DNA of 46,337 nt. It comes from Sporolactobacillus sp. THM19-2 (GTDB lineage: Bacteria > Bacillota > Bacilli > Bacillales > Sporolactobacillaceae). Under the pieces are notes generated by a model. That model was not told where the DNA came from and ran no database searches. It saw only the letters and a program-made list of their open reading frames with translations. Shown here piece by piece: positions 9,873 to 32,649 of this stretch (the first letter of the stretch is position 1; every line of letters starts with the position of its first letter). Made by a program: the position numbers and the translations under genes. Location of the stretch: assembly GCF_004153195.1 (NCBI RefSeq), contig NZ_SEMC01000019.1:1-46337 (forward strand), written 5' to 3'.

Positions 9873-9989
9873 TTCTTATCTAGAGAAGTTGAGGGACTGG
9901 CCCGATGACGCTTCAGCAACCGCCGTATCTACGTGATCCGGTAAGGTGCTAATCCCAGCAGACACAGTGATGTGACTGAGGGATAAGAA
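9873..9989 (+). ncRNA. SAM-I (S-box) riboswitch
   Basis: The conserved S-box order is visible: closing helix TTCTTATC (9873-9880) / GATAAGAA (9982-9989), GAGGGACTGGCCC, GATG, GCTTCAGCAACC, CGGTAAGGTGCTAATCCCA and CTGAGGGATAAG. The aptamer binds S-adenosylmethionine. When bound, the closing helix forms and frees the downstream terminator; when empty, the AAGAAGAGA strand can instead pair with TCTCTTCTT of the terminator. It controls the two methionine genes that follow. Confidence 0.96.
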
Positions 9990-17903: not shown

Positions 17904-19157
17904 TCACTCCGATTCAAGATTTATTTTTACAAACTTCCTTTTGCCAACCTGAACGACCATGCCATCATGTACATTAATTTTTGCTCCGATGTCGGACAGT
18001 TTCGTCTGATTAATTTTTACGCCGCCGTTATGGATCATCCTGCGCGCCTCTCCGTTACTTTGAAAAAGGCCAAGTCTCACCAGAAAAGCAACCACCCAGA
18101 TCTGTTGCGTGGAACCGTTCCAATGCACTTCCGGAAGATCGCCCGGAAGCGCGTGTTGACGGAACACCTCTGCAAACTGTGCGCTCGCCTGATCCGCCGC
18201 TTCCTTGCCATGATACATGTTCACCAGTGTCCAGCTTAGCCGTTCCTTCACATCCCTCGGATGGATGGAGCCATTCTTTAATCCAGCCGCCAGACGGTTG
18301 ATCTCTTTAATGGGCAGATCGGTCGCCAAAGTAAAGTACTTGATCATCAGTTCATCCGGCAGAGACATCGCCTTGCCGAAAATCTCATCCGCTGATTCGT
18401 CAATGCCGATATAATTGCCAAGCGACTTGGACATTTTCTTCTTTCCATCCAGCCCTTCCAGAAGAGGGAGCATGATCGCCACCTGTTTTTCCATGCCGTA
18501 AGCTTCCTGAATATGCCGTCCCATCAGCAAATTAAACTTCTGATCCGTGCCTCCGAGTTCAATATCGGATCGGAGTGCAACGGAGTCGTACGCCTGCATC
18601 AGAGGATAGAAGAACTCATGAATCGATATAGACTGCCCTGACCGGTAGCGATTGCTGAAATCGTCACGTTCAAGCATGCGCGCCACCGTTGTTTTGGCGG
18701 ACAAGTCAATGACATCGGAAAAACTCAGACGGGACAGCCATTTCGCGTTAAAGGCAACGGTCGCTTTCTCCATATCGATAACCTTGCTAAATTGTTCAAA
18801 GTATGTCTGTGCATTCGCCTGAACTTCTTCATCCGTTAATTGCCGGCGTGTCGCCGATTTGCCCGTCGGATCGCCGATTTTTCCTGTAAAATCGCCGATC
18901 ACGAGCTGAACCTGATGGCCGAATTGCTGAAACTGGCGCAGTTTATGCAGCACCACCGTGTGTCCGATATGCACGTCCGGAGCCGATGGATCAAGACCCA
19001 GTTTAACATGCAACGGCTTTCCGGTCGCCACTGACTTTTTCAGTTTTTCTCTAAGCTCAGCCTCAGGAACAATTTCCGCTGCACCCTGTTTCAGAGTGTC
19101 AAACTGTTGTTGGACAGCTTCCTGCTGTGAAACCGATAAATGAATCTCAGCATTCAT
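17904..19157 (-). CDS. tyrS: Tyrosyl-tRNA synthetase
   Basis: This class I aminoacyl-tRNA synthetase of 417 residues charges tRNA-Tyr. Motifs: HIGH-type [14 protein letters not shown], the tyrosine-pocket segment [27 protein letters not shown], and the KMSKS loop ([11 protein letters not shown]). A C-terminal S4 RNA-binding domain follows ([23 protein letters not shown]). The sequence is of the TyrZ/TyrRS2 type seen as a second enzyme in Bacillus. The start is taken as ATG 19157 behind GGAGTGGGAG; longer in-frame starts would extend into the leader. A T-box leader upstream makes expression respond to uncharged tRNA-Tyr. Confidence 0.94.
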
Positions 19158-19250
19158 TTCTCCCACTCCATTTCCGTTATTCTTCATACGTTTTCGATGA
19201 AAGCCGCCGACACGAACCATGAACTGCTGTCACACCCGTAAAACAGGAAT

Positions 19251-19500
19251 AAAAAAACGCCCCCTCTGAAAAGGGACGAAAATTCCGCGGTACCACCCTC
19301 GTTGAGCGCTCAGCCAGCTCTCCACTTGTTCCGTTAACGGCAGCAACCGTTTTCTGCTACTGGCTTGAACGAAGACGGCGTTTGCAGAAAAACTCAGGGA
19401 AGTAATTCATGACTGCCTTTGTGCCGGCTCGCATCGTCCGCCGGCTTTCTGGAACAGGGAAACAGCCACTACTCATTCCAATCATCGCGATCAATGTGAA
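19251..19500 (-). ncRNA. T-box leader RNA (tyrosine) with terminator
   Basis: On the minus strand the T-box core AGGGTGGTACCGCGGAA (19299-19283) is followed by the terminator hairpin CGTCCC...GGGGGCG and TTTTTTT (19278-19251). Upstream is Stem I with GATGATTGGAATGAGTAG, the apical CCGGC...GCCGG helix, and TGAATTACTTCCCTGAG, where TAC (19404-19402) is the plausible tyrosine specifier codon. Uncharged tRNA-Tyr pairing with the specifier and T-box would favour antitermination of tyrS. Confidence 0.93.
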
Positions 19501-20502: not shown

Positions 20503-20539
20503 CAAAAAACACCCTGCCAGATCATTCATTCTGGCAGGG
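20503..20539 (-). terminator. Terminator of guaA
   Basis: CCCTGCCAGA (20512-20521) pairs perfectly with TCTGGCAGGG (20530-20539). On the minus strand the stem is followed by TGTTTTTTGC. It lies about 100 nt past the guaA stop. Confidence 0.85.
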
Positions 20540-20639
20540 ATCTTGGCAGGAACCATTAAATTTTTAGCAGTTTTTACCCGCTTTACATCATAATAAACCT
20601 TGTGAAACAGGGATTCTCTTTCCAATTTGTATTTTCCTT

Positions 20640-22181
20640 TTATTCCCACTCAATTGTGGCCGGCGGCTTGGAGGTAACGTCATACACAATACGGTTGACG
20701 TGCTCCACCTCATTCACGATCCGGTTCGAGATTTTTTCGAGAACCTCCCATGGGATGCGTGCCCAGTCGGAGGTCATGCCGTCGATTGAGGTGACAGCGC
20801 GGATGGCGATACAGTGATCGTAGGTACGTCCGTCGCCCATAACGCCGACACTCTGGATGTTCGGCAGCACGGTGAAGTACTGCCAGATGTCGCGGTCGAG
20901 ACCGGCTTTTTTGATTTCCTCACGCAGAATGGCATCTGATTCACGGACAATTGCCAGCTTGTCCTCGGTAATCGCGCCGAGCACGCGGATGCCGAGGCCC
21001 GGTCCCGGGAACGGCTGGCGCCAGACGATATCGTCCGGCAGGCCGAGCTGGGTGCCGAGCTCGCGTACCTCATCCTTGAACAGCGTATTCAGCGGTTCAA
21101 TCAGCTTGAATGTCATATCTTCGGGAAGCCCGCCGACATTATGATGCGACTTGATGGTCTGTGAGGAGCCGCCCGCGCCGCTCTCTACCACATCCGTATA
21201 GAGCGTGCCCTGGACAAGAAACGAGATATCCTTAAGCTTGCTTGCTTCTTCTTCAAAAACATGGATGAATTCGTTGCCGATGATTTTGCGCTTTTTCTCC
21301 GGCTCGCTGACATCCGTCAGCTTGTCCAGAAAGCGCTGTTTTGCGTCGACAAAGATAAAATTCATATGGAAGCGGTTTTTGAATGTCTCAACAACGCCTT
21401 CTGCTTCGCCTTTGCGGAGCAGACCGTGATCGACAAAAATGCAGGTCAGCTGATCGCCTATGGCCTGGTGTACCAGAGCTGCAGCAACCGAAGAATCAAC
21501 TCCGCCGCTCAATGCACAGATTACTTTCTTATCGCCGACAGTGGACCGGATCTTCTCCACCTGCTGATCGATGAAGTGTTCCATCGACCAGTTCTTTTCC
21601 GCTTTACAGATGTTAAAAATAAAATTCTTCAGAAGATCATTTCCGAATTCTGTGTGGCGGACTTCAACGTGGTACTGCACTCCGTACAGATTTTTTGCGA
21701 CATCACTCATCGCCGCCACCGGACACGATGCGCTTTTCGCATCGACTTTGAATCCTTCCGGCGGCGTTTTAACGAGATCGCCATGGCTCATCCAGACTGT
21801 CTGCTTTGCCGGCTGCCCCTGGAAAAGGGCACTGTCCGTATTCGCGGAAATTTCTGCTTTACCATATTCTCTGTGGGAGGCATGCGCAACATCCGCCCCG
21901 AAGTGCAGGCTCATCAGTTGCATCCCGTAACAGATACCGAGAATCGGAATCCCGAGGTCATAGACCGCCGGATCGACTTTCGGCGCGCCCTCCCAGTAGA
22001 CACTGCTCGGTCCGCCGGAGAAGATGATCCCTTTCGGCCTTTTTTCTCTGATCTGTTCCGCCGTCATCGTATTCGGCAGAAGTTCACTGTATACACCAAG
22101 ATCACGGACACGTCTTGCGATCAGCTGATTATACTGACCGCCGAAGTCCATGACAATGATCAAATTCTCAGGTTGTCCCAT
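20640..22181 (-). CDS. guaA: GMP synthase (glutamine-hydrolysing)
   Basis: This 513-residue enzyme converts XMP, ATP and glutamine to GMP. Domains in order: class I glutamine amidotransferase with the nucleophile in GICYGMQLM (about residue 85) and the [12 protein letters not shown] loop, ATP-pyrophosphatase domain with the P-loop [18 protein letters not shown], and the dimerisation/XMP-binding C-terminus ending KPPATIEWE. In the usual family motif the amidotransferase histidine sits in YHPE; here the text reads YHVEVRH, so the position after His is Val instead of Pro, which is unusual. The start is ATG 22181 ([20 protein letters not shown]), matching the decayed copy. The ribosome site is weak. 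Length is full for the family. Confidence 0.95.
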
Positions 22182-27181: not shown

Positions 27182-27958
27182 TCAGTACCCTGCGCCCCCT
27201 TCTCGGGGATCAGGAGACAGTTCAGTCAGTATGTGTTTCAGACGATTCACTTCAATCTGTCCAGGCGCGGAAACCTCGTTCAGACTTCCGAAAGTGACAG
27301 CAGATCCGGTGAGCATTCCGCTGATTCGGGAAACTTTACCCAGGCTGCCCATTGCCATCGTAATAATCGGAATCGTCATCGACCCGCTCGCCTCCAGAGT
27401 TGCCTCCATCAGTGTCAGTACGTCGTCCGGTAAACGGGGCATCACCGCTATTTTCGCTATATCAGCTTTTTCCGCTTCCATTTTTTTCAATTTTGTGACG
27501 AGGGCGTTCCGGGAAGGGGTATGGGAAAAGTCATGTGAACTGATGATCACTTTCCCTCCTGACCGGTGTACCGCATCAATAAGGCGTGCCCGTCCCCTTG
27601 AAGGGCGTGTCTGTTCCAGATCAACAGCATCAGCCAGTTTCCGCTCGATCAGCCTCTCGTACAGCTGAAAATATGCCGGATCACTAAGCGGCTTCTCCCC
27701 GCCTTCGCGTGAACTTCTGAAGGTGGCCAGCAGCGGCTTTTCGCCAAGAACGCCCCGCAACCGTCCGGCTGCATGCAACAGGGATGCAACGGACAGATCC
27801 TTCATGTAGTCGATACGCCATTCGGCAAAGTCGGCCGGACCGGAGGCGATCTGTGCCGCAATATGCTCCGCTGATTCACTGGACGTACCCGTGATCGGTA
27901 CACAGATCTTCGGGATGCCGGAACCGATGGTCAGATTTTTTAACGTAACTGTTTTCAT
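27182..27958 (-). CDS. aroD: Type I 3-dehydroquinate dehydratase
   Basis: This enzyme of 258 residues catalyses the third shikimate-pathway step, 3-dehydroquinate to 3-dehydroshikimate, through a Schiff-base lysine. Visible: PKICVPITG, the substrate-binding PADFAEWRIDY, LLATFRSSREGGEK, the active-site histidine in IISSHDFSHTPS, the Schiff-base lysine in ADIAKIAVMP, and TMAMGSLGKVSRISGMLTGSAVTFG near the C-terminus. ATG 27958 is preceded by GAAGGGTGA. It is transcribed divergently from the transketolase-aroF-aroB operon, bringing four early steps of aromatic biosynthesis together. Confidence 0.95.
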   Translation of the reverse strand: MKTVTLKNLTIGSGIPKICVPITGTSSESAEHIAAQIASGPADFAEWRIDYMKDLSVASLLHAAGRLRGVLGEKPLLATFRSSREGGEKPLSDPAYFQLYERLIERKLADAVDLEQTRPSRGRARLIDAVHRSGGKVIISSHDFSHTPSRNALVTKLKKMEAEKADIAKIAVMPRLPDDVLTLMEATLEASGSMTIPIITMAMGSLGKVSRISGMLTGSAVTFGSLNEVSAPGQIEVNRLKHILTELSPDPREGGAGY

Positions 27959-28108
27959 ATTCACCCTTCTTACGGCTGTTTCTGTTATCGCGAGCGTAGC
28001 ATGCAGCTGACGGACTGTCAATCAGCCTGAAGAGCCCGGCGAGCCCCCTGTTTTCAGATATTGTCCATGATTCTCTGTCAGGATACCTTTCCATTTTTCA
28101 AACTTGTC

Positions 28109-28137
28109 TTGACATTTTTAATATTTACTGCTATCTT
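28109..28137 (+). promoter_or_regulatory. Sigma-A promoter of the aromatic leader/operon
   Basis: TTGACA (28109-28114), 17-nt A+T-rich spacer, TATCTT (28132-28137). Predicted start near 28144, about 25 nt before the leader-peptide ATG. Confidence 0.85.
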
Positions 28138-28167
28138 ATTAACACTAACTGACTGGGAGTTTTGACG

Positions 28168-28230
28168 ATGGTTCAACAATGGTGTTGTTTTCAAATGAAT
28201 CGATACTATTACTTTGGCTGGTTTATTTAG
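28168..28230 (+). CDS. Aromatic-rich leader peptide (20 residues)
   Basis: ATG 28168 lies 8 nt after GGGAG, and the frame ends at TAG 28228-28230. The product is MVQQWCCFQMNRYYYFGWFI: two Trp, three Tyr and three Phe among 20 residues, six of them within residues 13-19 (YYYFGWF). No transport or structural role is suggested. The composition, the promoter just upstream, the mutually exclusive hairpins starting at the base after the stop codon and the downstream shikimate genes all indicate a ribosome-stalling attenuator peptide sensing charged tRNA-Tyr, -Phe and -Trp. No such peptide is familiar to me for this operon. Translation has to be shown. Confidence 0.8.
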   Translation: MVQQWCCFQMNRYYYFGWFI

Positions 28231-28366
28231 GTGTTTGCACCTTGCCCGCAGCAGATGCAAACACTTCCGTTTGCATCTGTGCCGGCCAAAGCTGCTTCGC
28301 ATGCGTCAGAACAAGCCGCACAGATGTTGTCCAGACAGATAAGGACAATAAACTGTGCGGCTTTTC
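28231..28366 (+). promoter_or_regulatory. Attenuator RNA with five mutually exclusive pairing segments
   Basis: Perfect helices: segment 1 GTGTTTGCA (28231-28239) with 2 TGCAAACAC (28256-28264); 2 CAGATGCAAAC (28252-28262) with 3 GTTTGCATCTG (28269-28279); 3 CATCTGTGC (28274-28282) with 4 GCACAGATG (28318-28326); 4 GCCGCACAG (28315-28323) with 5 CTGTGCGGC (28353-28361). Helix 4:5 encloses TTGTCC/GGACAA (28327-28332/28343-28348) and is followed by TTTT, so it is terminator-like. Predicted logic: a ribosome at the stop codon masks segment 1, giving 2:3 and then 4:5 (off); a ribosome stalled at Tyr/Phe/Trp codons leaves 1:2, then 3:4, preventing 4:5 (on). Confidence 0.82.
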
Positions 28367-28387
28367 CCTGTTCAGAGTAAGAAATCG

Positions 28388-28429
28388 AAAAGGGCCCACG
28401 GTTTATTGAAAACCGTGGGCCCTTTTTTC
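28388..28429 (+). terminator. Strong terminator between the attenuator and tkt
   Basis: AGGGCCCACGGTTT (28391-28404) pairs perfectly with AAACCGTGGGCCCT (28410-28423), followed by a T-run to 28427. It stands 55 nt before the tkt start. No complementary antiterminator strand was found upstream, so how transcription passes it is open. Confidence 0.9.
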
Positions 28430-28482
28430 AGTACGTCCGTCGCTGCCGGGATTGACGAGAAACAGAAAGGAGTGAAGCTACA

Positions 28483-30510
28483 ATGAAGTTTGACGAAATT
28501 GACGAAAGTTGTGTGAATGCGATACGTATGCTGAGCTGTGAATGCATTGAACGTGCCGGTTCCGGACATCCGGGACTTCCTCTCGGTGCCGCTCCGATGG
28601 CCTACGTGCTGTGGCGTAATCATTTACGTCTGAATCCGGATGATCCGGACTGGTTTGATCGCGACCGCTTTGTCCTGTCGGCCGGTCATGGCTCAGCCAT
28701 GCTTTACAGTCTGCTGCATTTGTCGGGATTTGATCTAACCATGGATGATTTGAAACATTTCCGCCGGTTCCGCAGCAGAACGCCCGGACACCCGGAACGG
28801 GGAAGTGCGCCCGGAGTTGAGGCAACAACTGGTCCACTGGGCCAGGGCCTTGGAATGGCAACAGGTATGGCTATGGCTGAAGCCCATCTGGCAGCTGTCT
28901 GTCACTCAGGCGAGGAGGTGATCAATCACCGGACATTCGTTCTGTGCGGAGACGGAGATCTGATGGAAGGCGTTTCCTATGAAGCTGCAAGCCTCGCCGG
29001 TCATCTGAAACTGAACAAATTAATGGTCCTGTATGATTCGAACAGCGTCTCACTTGATGGCCGGGCAGACCGATCATTTTCTGAAGATGTACGCGGCCGT
29101 TTTGAAAGCTGCGGCTGGAATTATCTGCGGGTGGAAGACGGCAATGATCTGTCCGCCATCGACGCGGCGATTGAACGCGCAAAACAGCAGAGGAATGGAC
29201 CGACGCTGATAGAAGTCCGGACGGTCATTGGTTTCGGTGCGCCGGGTCAGGGAACAAATCAGGTCCACGGCACCCCGCTCGGAGAAAAGGGATTGGCAGA
29301 ACTTCGCCGCCGGCTGCACTGGGATCATCCTGAATTTACTGTTCCCCGTAACGTTCGGGAACGCTTCAGGCAGTGCATCGGCCAACGGGGAGGGCAGGCT
29401 GAAGCTGAATGGAAGTGCCGGGTGAATCAATGGGCGGCAGGTCATCCGGACAAAGCCGAAAAGTTAACGCAGGCACTGAACCATCAGCTGCCTCCGGACT
29501 GGAAAGAGGGACTCCCGCGCGAGGTGACCGGTTCCGAGTCCGGACGCGTGACCAGCCATCGCATCATTCAGATTCTGGCAGATAAGCTTCCCTTTCTGTG
29601 GGGCGGATCAGCCGATCTCGCCAGTTCGAATAAAACAAATATTGAACGCAGCGATTTGTTCCGTGCGGAGCGCCGTGAGGGACGAAATATTGCCTTCGGT
29701 GTCCGTGAGTTTGCTGAAGCATCGGCGCTGAACGGGATCGCGCTTCACGGCGGCAGCCGGGTATTCGGCGGCACCTTCTTCGTTTTTTCCGATTACATGC
29801 GTGCCGCCATCCGCCTGGCAGCCCTTCAGAAGCTGCCTGTGATCTATATTTTCACCCACGATTCGATTGCCGTTGGAGAAGATGGTCCGACCCATGAACC
29901 GGTGGAACAGCTGATGAGTCTGCGGGCGATGCCCGGTGTGTCGCTCATCCGTCCCGCTGATGCGAATGAGACCGTCGCAGCCTGGGAAGCAGCAATAGAG
30001 ACCTCAGACCGGCCAACGATTCTCGCCCTGTCCCGCCAGAAACTGCCTGTACTGAGCGGAACCGCGGAACAGGCTGAAGAAGGGGTCCGGCACGGCGGTT
30101 ACGTGCTTTCCCCGCAGGAGGGGGCATGGCCCGAGGGGATTCTGATCGCCACCGGATCGGAAGTCCGGCTCGCTATCGGTGCACAAAAGTTGCTGCGCCA
30201 GTCCGGGCATGATGTTTCCGTGGTATCGATGCCCTGTTTCGACCGGTTTGAGAAACAGAGTCAGGCCTATCGTGAATCGGTTCTTCCTTCCACCGTGCGC
30301 CGGCGGATGTCGATTGAAATGGGGGCGACATTCGGCTGGGAACGTTATGTCGGCCTGCAGGGCATCTCCCTTGGCGTCGACACATTCGGCGCCAGCGGAT
30401 CTGCAGAAGATCTGATGAATCATTTCGGTTTTACAGAAAATCATATTGTCACGCTTTACACGCAGGCAGCCGAGAAGCCTGTCAACCTGGTTCATCCGCA
30501 GGTAGGCTGA
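28483..30510 (+). CDS. tkt: Transketolase
   Basis: This thiamine-diphosphate enzyme of 675 residues interconverts sugar phosphates and yields erythrose 4-phosphate, the DAHP-synthase substrate. Motifs: [56 protein letters not shown], the ThDP/metal motif [30 protein letters not shown], the pyrimidine-domain [15 protein letters not shown] and [20 protein letters not shown], and C-terminal [21 protein letters not shown] 28483 follows AAAGGAGTG. As the first gene of an operon with aroF and aroB behind an aromatic attenuator, it is probably a dedicated paralogue feeding the shikimate pathway; whether another tkt exists in the genome is not visible. Confidence 0.93.
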
Positions 30511-30565
30511 CCGGCCCCGGCAACGTAAAATTATATCAACCTATACCAAAGTGAGGTCATACAAC

Positions 30566-31563
<998 letters not shown>

Positions 31564-31567
<4 letters not shown>

Positions 31568-32649
31568 CTTTGGAAGTCTCTGTAAATCTGCCAGACAAAA
31601 CCTATAAGGTGCTGATTCACCGCGGCCTGATTCATCACCTGGGAAATCGGCTCAGCCGGATCTGGAGACCCGGGAAGGTCGCTGTCATCAGCGACAGTAC
31701 TGTTGGCCCCCTTTATCAGGATCAGGTCATTCGCCAGCTGCGAACCGCAGGCTTTCCGGCGACCAGTCTCAAGGTACCGGCCGGAGAGTCTTCGAAAAGC
31801 TGGGAGACAGCTGTCACACTCTACCGGGCACTGATCGATCATCATTTTACACGATCAGACGGCATAGTCGCTTTGGGTGGTGGCGTGATCGGTGATCTTG
31901 CCGGTTTTGTCGCCTCAACTTATATGCGCGGCATCGCATTCGTCCAGGTCCCGACATCACTTCTGGCACAGGTCGACAGCAGCGTCGGTGGTAAGACGGC
32001 GGTTAACCTCGATACAGGCAAAAATATAGTGGGCACGTTTTATCAGCCTGATGCCGTCTTTATCGATCCCGACACTCTTGAAACCCTCCCGGATCGTTAC
32101 ATCGCCGAAGGATACGCGGAAATTGTCAAAATGTCTGCCCTGTCAGGCGGTTCATTCTGGGAGACAACCGGACAGATCCATCACCCGGAAGACATTGTTG
32201 CCCGGGCAGAGGTGCTGATTCAGAAAAGTGTCGCTTTTAAAGCCCGTATCGTCATCGCCGACGAGAAGGAATCCGGTCTCCGGCAGATTCTTAATTTTGG
32301 CCACACGATCGGCCATGCGATTGAGCTTCAGGCCAAAGGCACACTGGCTCACGGCGAAGCCATCAGTATCGGTATGGCAAGACTGTCGCAACTGTTCGAG
32401 AACTACGGCCTGACCGAATCCGGTACCTCCCGCAGCCTGATTCAGCGGCTGCAGGAAGTGGGACTGCCGCTTGACTCTTCATTGATTGGCACTTCGGATT
32501 TTTACCATAAAATTATTTCGGACAAAAAGAATCACGGCGGCCGCCTCAATCTTGTCTATTTAAAGAAGCCGGGTGAACCGGCCCTGTATCCTGTGCCGAC
32601 TGACCGGCTCCAATTGTTTTTCTCCGGAAAAAATTCCTTAGAATCTTAA
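31564..32649 (+). CDS. aroB: 3-dehydroquinate synthase
   Basis: This 361-residue NAD- and zinc-dependent enzyme turns DAHP into 3-dehydroquinate. Motifs: VAVISDSTVGPLY, the NAD-binding GIVALGGGVIGDLAGFVASTYMRGI, QVPTSLLAQVDSSVGGKTAVN, EGYAEIVKM, and zinc ligands in LNFGHTIGHAIE and LAHGEAISIGM. ATG 31564 overlaps the aroF stop codon (ATGA). Length is normal. It is the last gene before a terminator, so the operon is leader-tkt-aroF-aroB. Confidence 0.96.

Follow-up and report, generated by a model that had tools for sequence, protein, structure and literature searches.

What controls transcription of the tkt-aroF-aroB genes in Sporolactobacillus sp. THM19-2, and to which amino acids does this control answer? 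T-boxes and repressors are the usual explanation for amino acid control in lactic acid bacteria, and T-boxes are described as the rule for histidine in Firmicutes in the available part of one source (PMC9413887). The genes lie in a contig of 46,337 nucleotides, which was analysed over its whole length and is called the window here. Sequence and folding models indicate that the element before tkt is very probably a ribosome-mediated transcription attenuator. The analysis established its sequence, conservation, covariation and predicted folds.

Leader gene and operon

A sigma-70-type promoter predicted by the first-pass annotation, TTGACA-17-TATCTT, was located at 28109-28137 (+ strand, as are all features below unless stated). 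It matched the consensus at 10/12 positions, with TG before the second hexamer, and a TTGAC box stands at the matching place in relatives, as judged by eye. The leader peptide gene MVQQWCCFQMNRYYYFGWFI (28168-28230) was also present as predicted. It has 20 codons, from the ATG at 28168 to a TAG stop codon at 28228-28230, and the sequence GGGAG at 28155-28159 is its likely ribosome binding site. Downstream are tkt, encoding transketolase (28483-30510; TIGR00232, 848.7 bits), a gene for an aroF-type DAHP synthase (30551-31567; above cut-off for both NF006421 and TIGR01361), and aroB, encoding 3-dehydroquinate synthase (31564-32649; above cut-off for TIGR01357), which overlaps the aroF stop. The divergent aroD gene for a type I 3-dehydroquinate dehydratase (27182-28021, - strand) adjoins the attenuator, and a similar frame occurs at locus L031 in another genome of the genus (G009).

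A relay of mutually exclusive helices

The RNA of the element forms a relay in which seven segments pair into six helices, each exclusive with the next, and one further helix reaches back into the control codons. Segment 1 (28231-28239) pairs with the end of segment 2 (28252-28264) in helix 1:2 (28231-39/28256-64, 9 bp), and 26 distinct sequences all keep the 8-pair core of this helix fully (100%) paired. The alternative partner of segment 2 is segment 3 (28269-28282), in helix 2:3 (28252-62/28269-79, 11 bp). Segment 3 may otherwise pair with segment 4 (28313-28326) in helix 3:4 (28274-82/28318-26, 9 bp), and segment 4 with segment 5 (28346-28363) in helix 4:5 (28313-23/28353-63, 11 bp). Segment 3 repeats segment 1 almost exactly, in direct orientation. 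All four helices are perfect Watson-Crick duplexes, as had been claimed, but 4:5 has 11 bp rather than 9. The TTTT expected after the helices is found at 28362-28365, where it closes 4:5 and makes this helix terminator-like itself.

Helix 4:5 is not the final terminator that it had been taken for. The last helix is 6:7 (28388-28426), an intrinsic terminator before tkt with a 17 bp stem, a 5 nt loop and TTTTTT, in which segment 6 (28388-28408) supplies the 5' arm and the loop, and segment 7 and the T run occupy 28410-28428. Segment 6 can instead pair with segment 5 in helix 5:6 (28346-57/28397-408, 12 bp including one G-U). Because of this 12 bp pairing, segment 5 should be able to act as an antiterminator, and the extension of 5:6 into the terminator loop (ATTG) would explain why the loop is conserved. 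Segment 0 (28212-28221) lies within the leader gene and consists of the last base of Tyr15 and the codons Phe16-Gly17-Trp18. It pairs with segment 3b (28282-28291), just behind segment 3, in helix 0:3b (28212-21/28282-91, 10 bp including one G-U). Helices 6:7, 5:6 and 0:3b all fall within the range that the first-pass annotation had described, and were overlooked there. That annotation, a leader-peptide attenuator tuned to Tyr, Phe and Trp, therefore had the right kind of element, with a conserved peptide and covarying helices, but an incomplete anatomy.

Counting perfect helices of at least 9 bp, the native sequence has a chain of four, while the longest chain in 1000 dinucleotide shuffles of 28231-28430 was two, found in one shuffle; 899 of the 1000 had no such helix at all. 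RNA folding of 28168-28440 gave z = -8.99, and none of 200 shuffles was as good.

Folding with a ribosome on the leader

How could the position of a ribosome select between these helices? We folded the RNA with the bases under the ribosome masked, placing its edges at textbook values. With the RNA of the window ending at 28340, the best fold was 1:2+3:4 for a ribosome on Tyr13, Tyr15 or Trp18, and 2:3 once the ribosome stood at Phe19 or the stop codon. The earlier proposal that stalling at codons 13-19 favours 1:2 and 3:4 is thus borne out at Tyr13, Tyr15 and Trp18 but not at Phe19, so that not all of these codons should work. Without a ribosome, 0:3b+2:3 was better than 1:2+3:4 by 8.5 kcal/mol.

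The stalled states preferred 1:2+3:4 at 28340 by a margin of 1.1 to 1.8 kcal/mol. When the RNA ended at 28300, 28372, 28408 or 28430, the off fold with 2:3 was optimal in these states, and at full length its lead was 30 to 43 kcal/mol. In every ribosome state the full-length equilibrium fold was the off fold, and the flip occurred at 28340 only. As the stalled 1:2+3:4 fold is optimal at one length only, the on state would have to be a kinetic trap.

The same calculation was made for distinct leaders from related loci, at an RNA length just past segment 4 that was chosen by us. A stalled ribosome gave 1:2+3:4 in 21/24 leaders from Sporolactobacillus, 74/99 mostly from Lactobacillaceae and 27/45 from the wider Lactobacillales, and 2:3 in 3/24, 22/99 and 10/45, respectively. 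With the ribosome at the stop codon, 2:3 formed in 24/24, 94/99 and 43/45, an outcome that follows in part from the masking of segment 1 itself; the stalled outcome does not depend on the masking in this way. With no ribosome, the three sets (in the same order) gave 2:3 in 10/24, 39/99 and 13/45, 1:2 without 3:4 in 6/24, 26/99 and 29/45, and the on-type 1:2+3:4 in 8/24, 30/99 and 3/45.

The switch would work as follows; its stalling and termination steps, its induction under starvation and the timing of the folds are all our inference. RNA polymerase would start behind the promoter (28109-28137), and a ribosome would translate the leader. When charged tRNA for Tyr, or also for Phe or Trp, runs low, the ribosome would halt on the Tyr-Tyr-Tyr-Phe-Gly-Trp codons, cover segment 0 and so prevent 0:3b, while segment 1 stays open. 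Helix 1:2 would then form, 3:4 would pair, and the freed segment 5 would pair with segment 6. With 3:4 and 5:6 in place neither 4:5 nor the 6:7 terminator could form, and tkt-aroF-aroB would be transcribed. When the amino acids are sufficient, the ribosome would reach the stop codon and lie over segment 1, allowing 2:3, 4:5 and 6:7 to form and transcription to end. Without a ribosome, 0:3b with 2:3 would put the sequence of the window in the off state. The on state would require 1:2 to form first, 3:4 to take over next, and 5:6 to form before segment 7 is made.

Copies in Sporolactobacillus

Covariance model R1, which comprises segments 1-5 without the leader, gave 24 strong matches in 14/15 Sporolactobacillus genomes; the remaining one has no copy. 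Ten copies precede tkt, whose orthologues (same species apart) are 69 to 74% identical in a protein search, and 14 are of a second type. By sequence recognition, 13 of these 14 precede one class I aminotransferase, and the one in the genome of the window passes NF005588. Two weak R1 matches in the genus (L069, L070) were rejected, having no leader of the attenuator kind. One more copy, in G009 (L031 1807-2139), came from a DNA search; it stands before a shortened-looking tkt frame that is followed by an aroF frame.

The remaining copy of the second type, in S. spathodeae, precedes an alternative route to dehydroquinate. Behind its attenuator leader is a 2-amino-3,7-dideoxy-D-threo-hept-6-ulosonate (ADH) synthase gene, over the subfamily cut-off, and the same locus has a gene of the 3-dehydroquinate (DHQ) synthase II type that falls slightly short of its cut-off (L105 / L087 5296-7265). 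This pair of enzymes is usually regarded as archaeal.

Conservation of the peptide in relatives had been set as a test of the proposal, and the control codons are kept: NRY-x-YF-x-W is found in 10/10 tkt-type copies, while the N-terminus is variable. The C-termini of the tkt leaders are NRYYYFGWF-like, with NRYDYF in one and DWLSFS in one. Leaders of the second type end in YYYFGFFR in 11/14 copies, and Trp, present before tkt, is absent from all 14.

Spread beyond the genus

A pattern scan of the genome collection returned 23 stretches, 19 of them from Sporolactobacillus. Others were in Liquorilactobacillus satsumensis (aminotransferase) and Loigolactobacillus bifermentans (transketolase), and pattern matches in Arthrobacter (L088) and Gracilibacillus (L091) were rejected, being without a leader of the attenuator kind. 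Model R2 matched 138/397 Lactobacillaceae genomes at E<=0.01 and 187/395 Lactobacillales genomes at E<=0.001, two samples that overlap in genomes. Across the class Bacilli it matched 20/398 genomes at E<=0.0001, in 6/145 genera, all of them in Sporolactobacillus or in families f51, f72 and f78; these three families belong to Lactobacillales, since places with the same coordinates were found in the Lactobacillales sample. E-values of R1 and R2 are rough, and the weakest matches include false ones. In the element's own family (26 genomes), three genomes outside the genus matched weakly and had no leader on reading. Part of the weak matches in the genus and the family were read individually, and those in G024, G018 and G016 and at a second place in G012 were rejected because they have no such leader, as were weak model matches in other families of the same order (L075, L076).

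Leader codons and downstream genes

The leader lies outside the search model, and its enrichment at the matched loci is therefore independent evidence. A leader with at least three aromatic residues in the last 14 codons was present at 76/80 Lactobacillaceae loci compared with 99/2000 random positions, and one with at least five aromatic residues and a ribosome site at 59/80 compared with 2/2000. The four loci without such an aromatic leader are L200, L201, L206 and L208, and a fifth locus (L211) has one yet is doubtful. Among 50 further Lactobacillales loci (L260 is the same place as L246), 40 have an aromatic leader; the other ten comprise seven Ile/Leu-rich leaders, two Trp leaders (L241, L242) and an ambiguous case (L239). 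The aromatic leader of L250 is ill-suited to its threonine dehydratase-like gene.

Does the choice of codons follow the gene? We compared the aromatic residues in the last 12 leader codons at 107 Lactobacillaceae loci. Before TrpX-like binding proteins (41 loci; the one protein scanned matched PF04392 and was below the TrpX cut-off), the leaders contained Tyr alone in 16 cases and Phe alone in 20, with Phe+Tyr in four and Phe+Trp in one, the doubtful L211. The 38 aminotransferase leaders contained Phe+Tyr+Trp (29) or Phe+Tyr (9), so the absence of Trp seen in Sporolactobacillus is not general. All three residues were present in 8/8 transketolase and 5/5 shikimate dehydrogenase leaders. YYYGYYG or FFFGFFG leaders precede TrpX-like genes, and IISIIR precedes ilvE, ilvA or livJ. 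In the wider Lactobacillales, ilvE, ilvA, ilvB and LivJ-like genes, of which representatives were scanned, are preceded by Ile/Leu leaders. The protein behind a TWQNWRR leader passed the TrpX cut-off (480.8 vs 390 bits), and the one behind YYYGYYG was under it (309.6 bits). Adjacent TrpX-like genes about 1.4-1.9 kb apart have separate leaders in three cases (L152/L164, L168/L182, L146/L167), one leader of each pair being Phe-rich and the other Tyr-rich; L167 (YYYGYFG) has one Phe. In some of the sequences, on our uncounted reading, the residue that breaks the run of control codons (Gly, Ser, Arg or Trp) appears to form the core of 0:3b.

Could the conserved leader be a TnaC-like arrest peptide, responding to a free amino acid, with the arrested ribosome setting the same switch? 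The strong conservation of NRYYYF-x-W would fit, and the same folds are expected from a ribosome stopped there by any cause. However, the C-terminus is swapped in step with the downstream gene (FFFGFFG, YYYGYYG, IISIIR, LLLLSLIIR, TWQNWRR), which codon sensing predicts and a single arrest motif does not, and helix 0:3b can account for the Gly, Ser, Arg or Trp that breaks up the run. We consider an arrest peptide quite unlikely, and retain codon sensing by a translating ribosome.

Other controls in the same genome

Control by another factor, through tRNA binding to a T-box or through TRAP, would make the leader frame a bystander. The genome has both systems elsewhere. A T-box leader (19269-19494, - strand) lies directly before tyrS (17904-19220, - strand; TIGR00234) in the window, and a TRAP (mtrB) gene (G000:C58:96689-96889) is over the Pfam cut-off. 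Yet the covariance model that found this T-box had no match at 28050-28500, three (G/T)AG repeats in a row at a spacing of 2 nt occur nowhere in the whole window, and both the leader codons and 0:3b speak for a leader that is translated, which makes such control of tkt-aroF-aroB very unlikely. With the probable attenuator, the T-box within 9 kb of it and the encoded TRAP, one cell would have three sensors of aromatic supply. Elsewhere in the window, a SAM riboswitch (9873-9989, + strand) lies before genes for cystathionine beta-lyase and B12-independent methionine synthase, and a match to the Listeria sRNA rli38 (20504-20654, - strand; 69.3 bits, gathering threshold 49) overlaps the 3' end of a guaA-like frame.

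Covariation and pairing

Covariation in the helices had also been set as a test, and two-sided changes exceeded those in shuffles in both alignments that we examined. A4 is a MAFFT alignment of 26 distinct rows. Its on set (1:2, 3:4) was 92.0% paired with 15 two-sided cells (shuffle mean 4.8), and the off set (2:3, 4:5) was 92.8% paired with 47 (18.9); versions slid out of register were at most 47.1% paired. In A5, which has 71 distinct rows including two wrong-strand matches, the on set was 89.2% paired with 68 two-sided cells (28.5 in shuffles), the off set was 91.6% paired with 195 (52.8), and slid versions were at most 52.8% paired. As A5 was fitted to 2:3 and 4:5, with 3:4 outside its aligning model, it is the on set that gives the fairer test in this alignment. 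By the measure 'further pair types', neither the on set (334/500 shuffles reached the value in A4, 183/500 in A5) nor the A4 off set (291/500) exceeded shuffles. Helix 1:2 was nearly invariant across the alignments.

Duplexes were also compared with shuffled partners in single copies (p<=0.05), in a main set of 70 copies and a transporter set of 56. In the main set 0:3b and 1:2 were each significant in 70/70 copies, 2:3 in 69/70 and 4:5 in 68/70, with 3:4 beating shuffles in just 31/70. The corresponding numbers in the transporter set were 42/56 (0:3b), 43/56 (1:2), 53/56 (2:3), 56/56 (4:5) and 10/56 (3:4). Helix 5:6 was significant in 57/69 main-set copies that have a found terminator, in 34/45 of the transporter set and in 24/25 Sporolactobacillus copies; pairing of this antiterminator, exclusive with terminator 6:7, is thus conserved. 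That the conserved block is a terminator pair or a repeat without regulation, owing its complementarity to duplication, is extremely unlikely. Terminator-like helices (4:5, 6:7) and direct repeats (segments 1 and 3) would fit such an origin. Against it stand the helices that exclude one another yet change on both sides, the pairing of segment 5 with both arm and loop of the terminator, which exceeds that in shuffles, and the match between leader codons and genes.

A re-codable leader?

Taken more broadly, attenuation by a translated leader may rest on one ancestral, modular chassis (segments 0-7 with 0:3b) that serves as a general amino-acid sensor in Lactobacillales and Sporolactobacillus, beside T-boxes and TRAP. 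Its codons would have been swapped (Tyr, Phe, Trp, Ile/Leu/Val), and the interrupting codon (Gly, Ser, Arg, Trp) kept as the core of 0:3b. We lean towards this reading, with some reserve. If it is true, leader codons would predict the cargo of uncharacterised transporters, for example tyrosine and phenylalanine versions of the TrpX-like binding protein. A widespread re-codable attenuator would add a second sensor of tRNA charging in lactic acid bacteria, help to infer what is carried by many amino acid transporters that lack an assignment, and be a natural case of one RNA framework re-coded many times.

Comparison with known systems

Rfam gave no credible family for the window and 10 related loci at gathering level, or for 28050-28500 at E-value level; a match to the trpB motif (RF04312) was below its gathering threshold (33.5 vs 59 bits) and was rejected. 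Among the matches listed in a search of the largely openly readable literature, judged by titles and the beginnings of abstracts, the element was not found for Sporolactobacillus or Lactobacillales. An aroR leader before aroF in Corynebacterium glutamicum was reportedly described by Neshat in 2014. According to the accessible part of a later source, a Phe-Tyr-Phe leader precedes the DAHP synthase operon of this species, and stalling on it raises transcription (PMC11802643). The likeness to the window is a leader peptide ahead of a DAHP synthase operon, but C. glutamicum belongs to another phylum, its leader is reported to answer to Phe and not to Tyr, and that part of the source mentions no relay. 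The claim of a new arrangement therefore fails for aroF attenuation as such, and stands for the architecture as far as the literature searched goes.

In Bacillales, experimentally supported leader-peptide attenuation of an amino acid operon is described for Listeria Rli60 and the Staphylococcus aureus ilv leader in the portions available of two papers (PMC5864092, PMC5794164). As described there, both are branched-chain systems, unlike the window; Rli60 has four segments, and in S. aureus the poly-U of the terminator is sequestered. An excerpt of the latter refers to branched-chain leader peptides predicted in Lactococcus and Streptococcus (PMC5794164), which may overlap the Ile/Leu versions of our element. 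Leader peptides predicted in bacilli and other Firmicutes (PMC2965389, PMC9413887, in extract) are likewise candidate attenuators, but concern histidine genes and other lineages. The uORFC-13-1 motif before Acholeplasma aroF, a candidate leader ORF followed by a terminator, resembles the window in this respect and differs in its taxon, in having at least one Phe codon and, by its description in the part of the source available, in its motif (PMC8632094).

The principle itself is an old one, and what appears new is the chassis, its re-coding and its spread. Like the element in the window, the his attenuator of Salmonella and E. coli, with segments A-F, is a series of helices that exclude one another, the last being a terminator. 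In his, however, the first segment of the series is the one that lies under the stalled ribosome, whereas the leader in the window ends before segment 1. Here an extra segment inverts the sense of the chain, and helix 0:3b pairs the control codons themselves.
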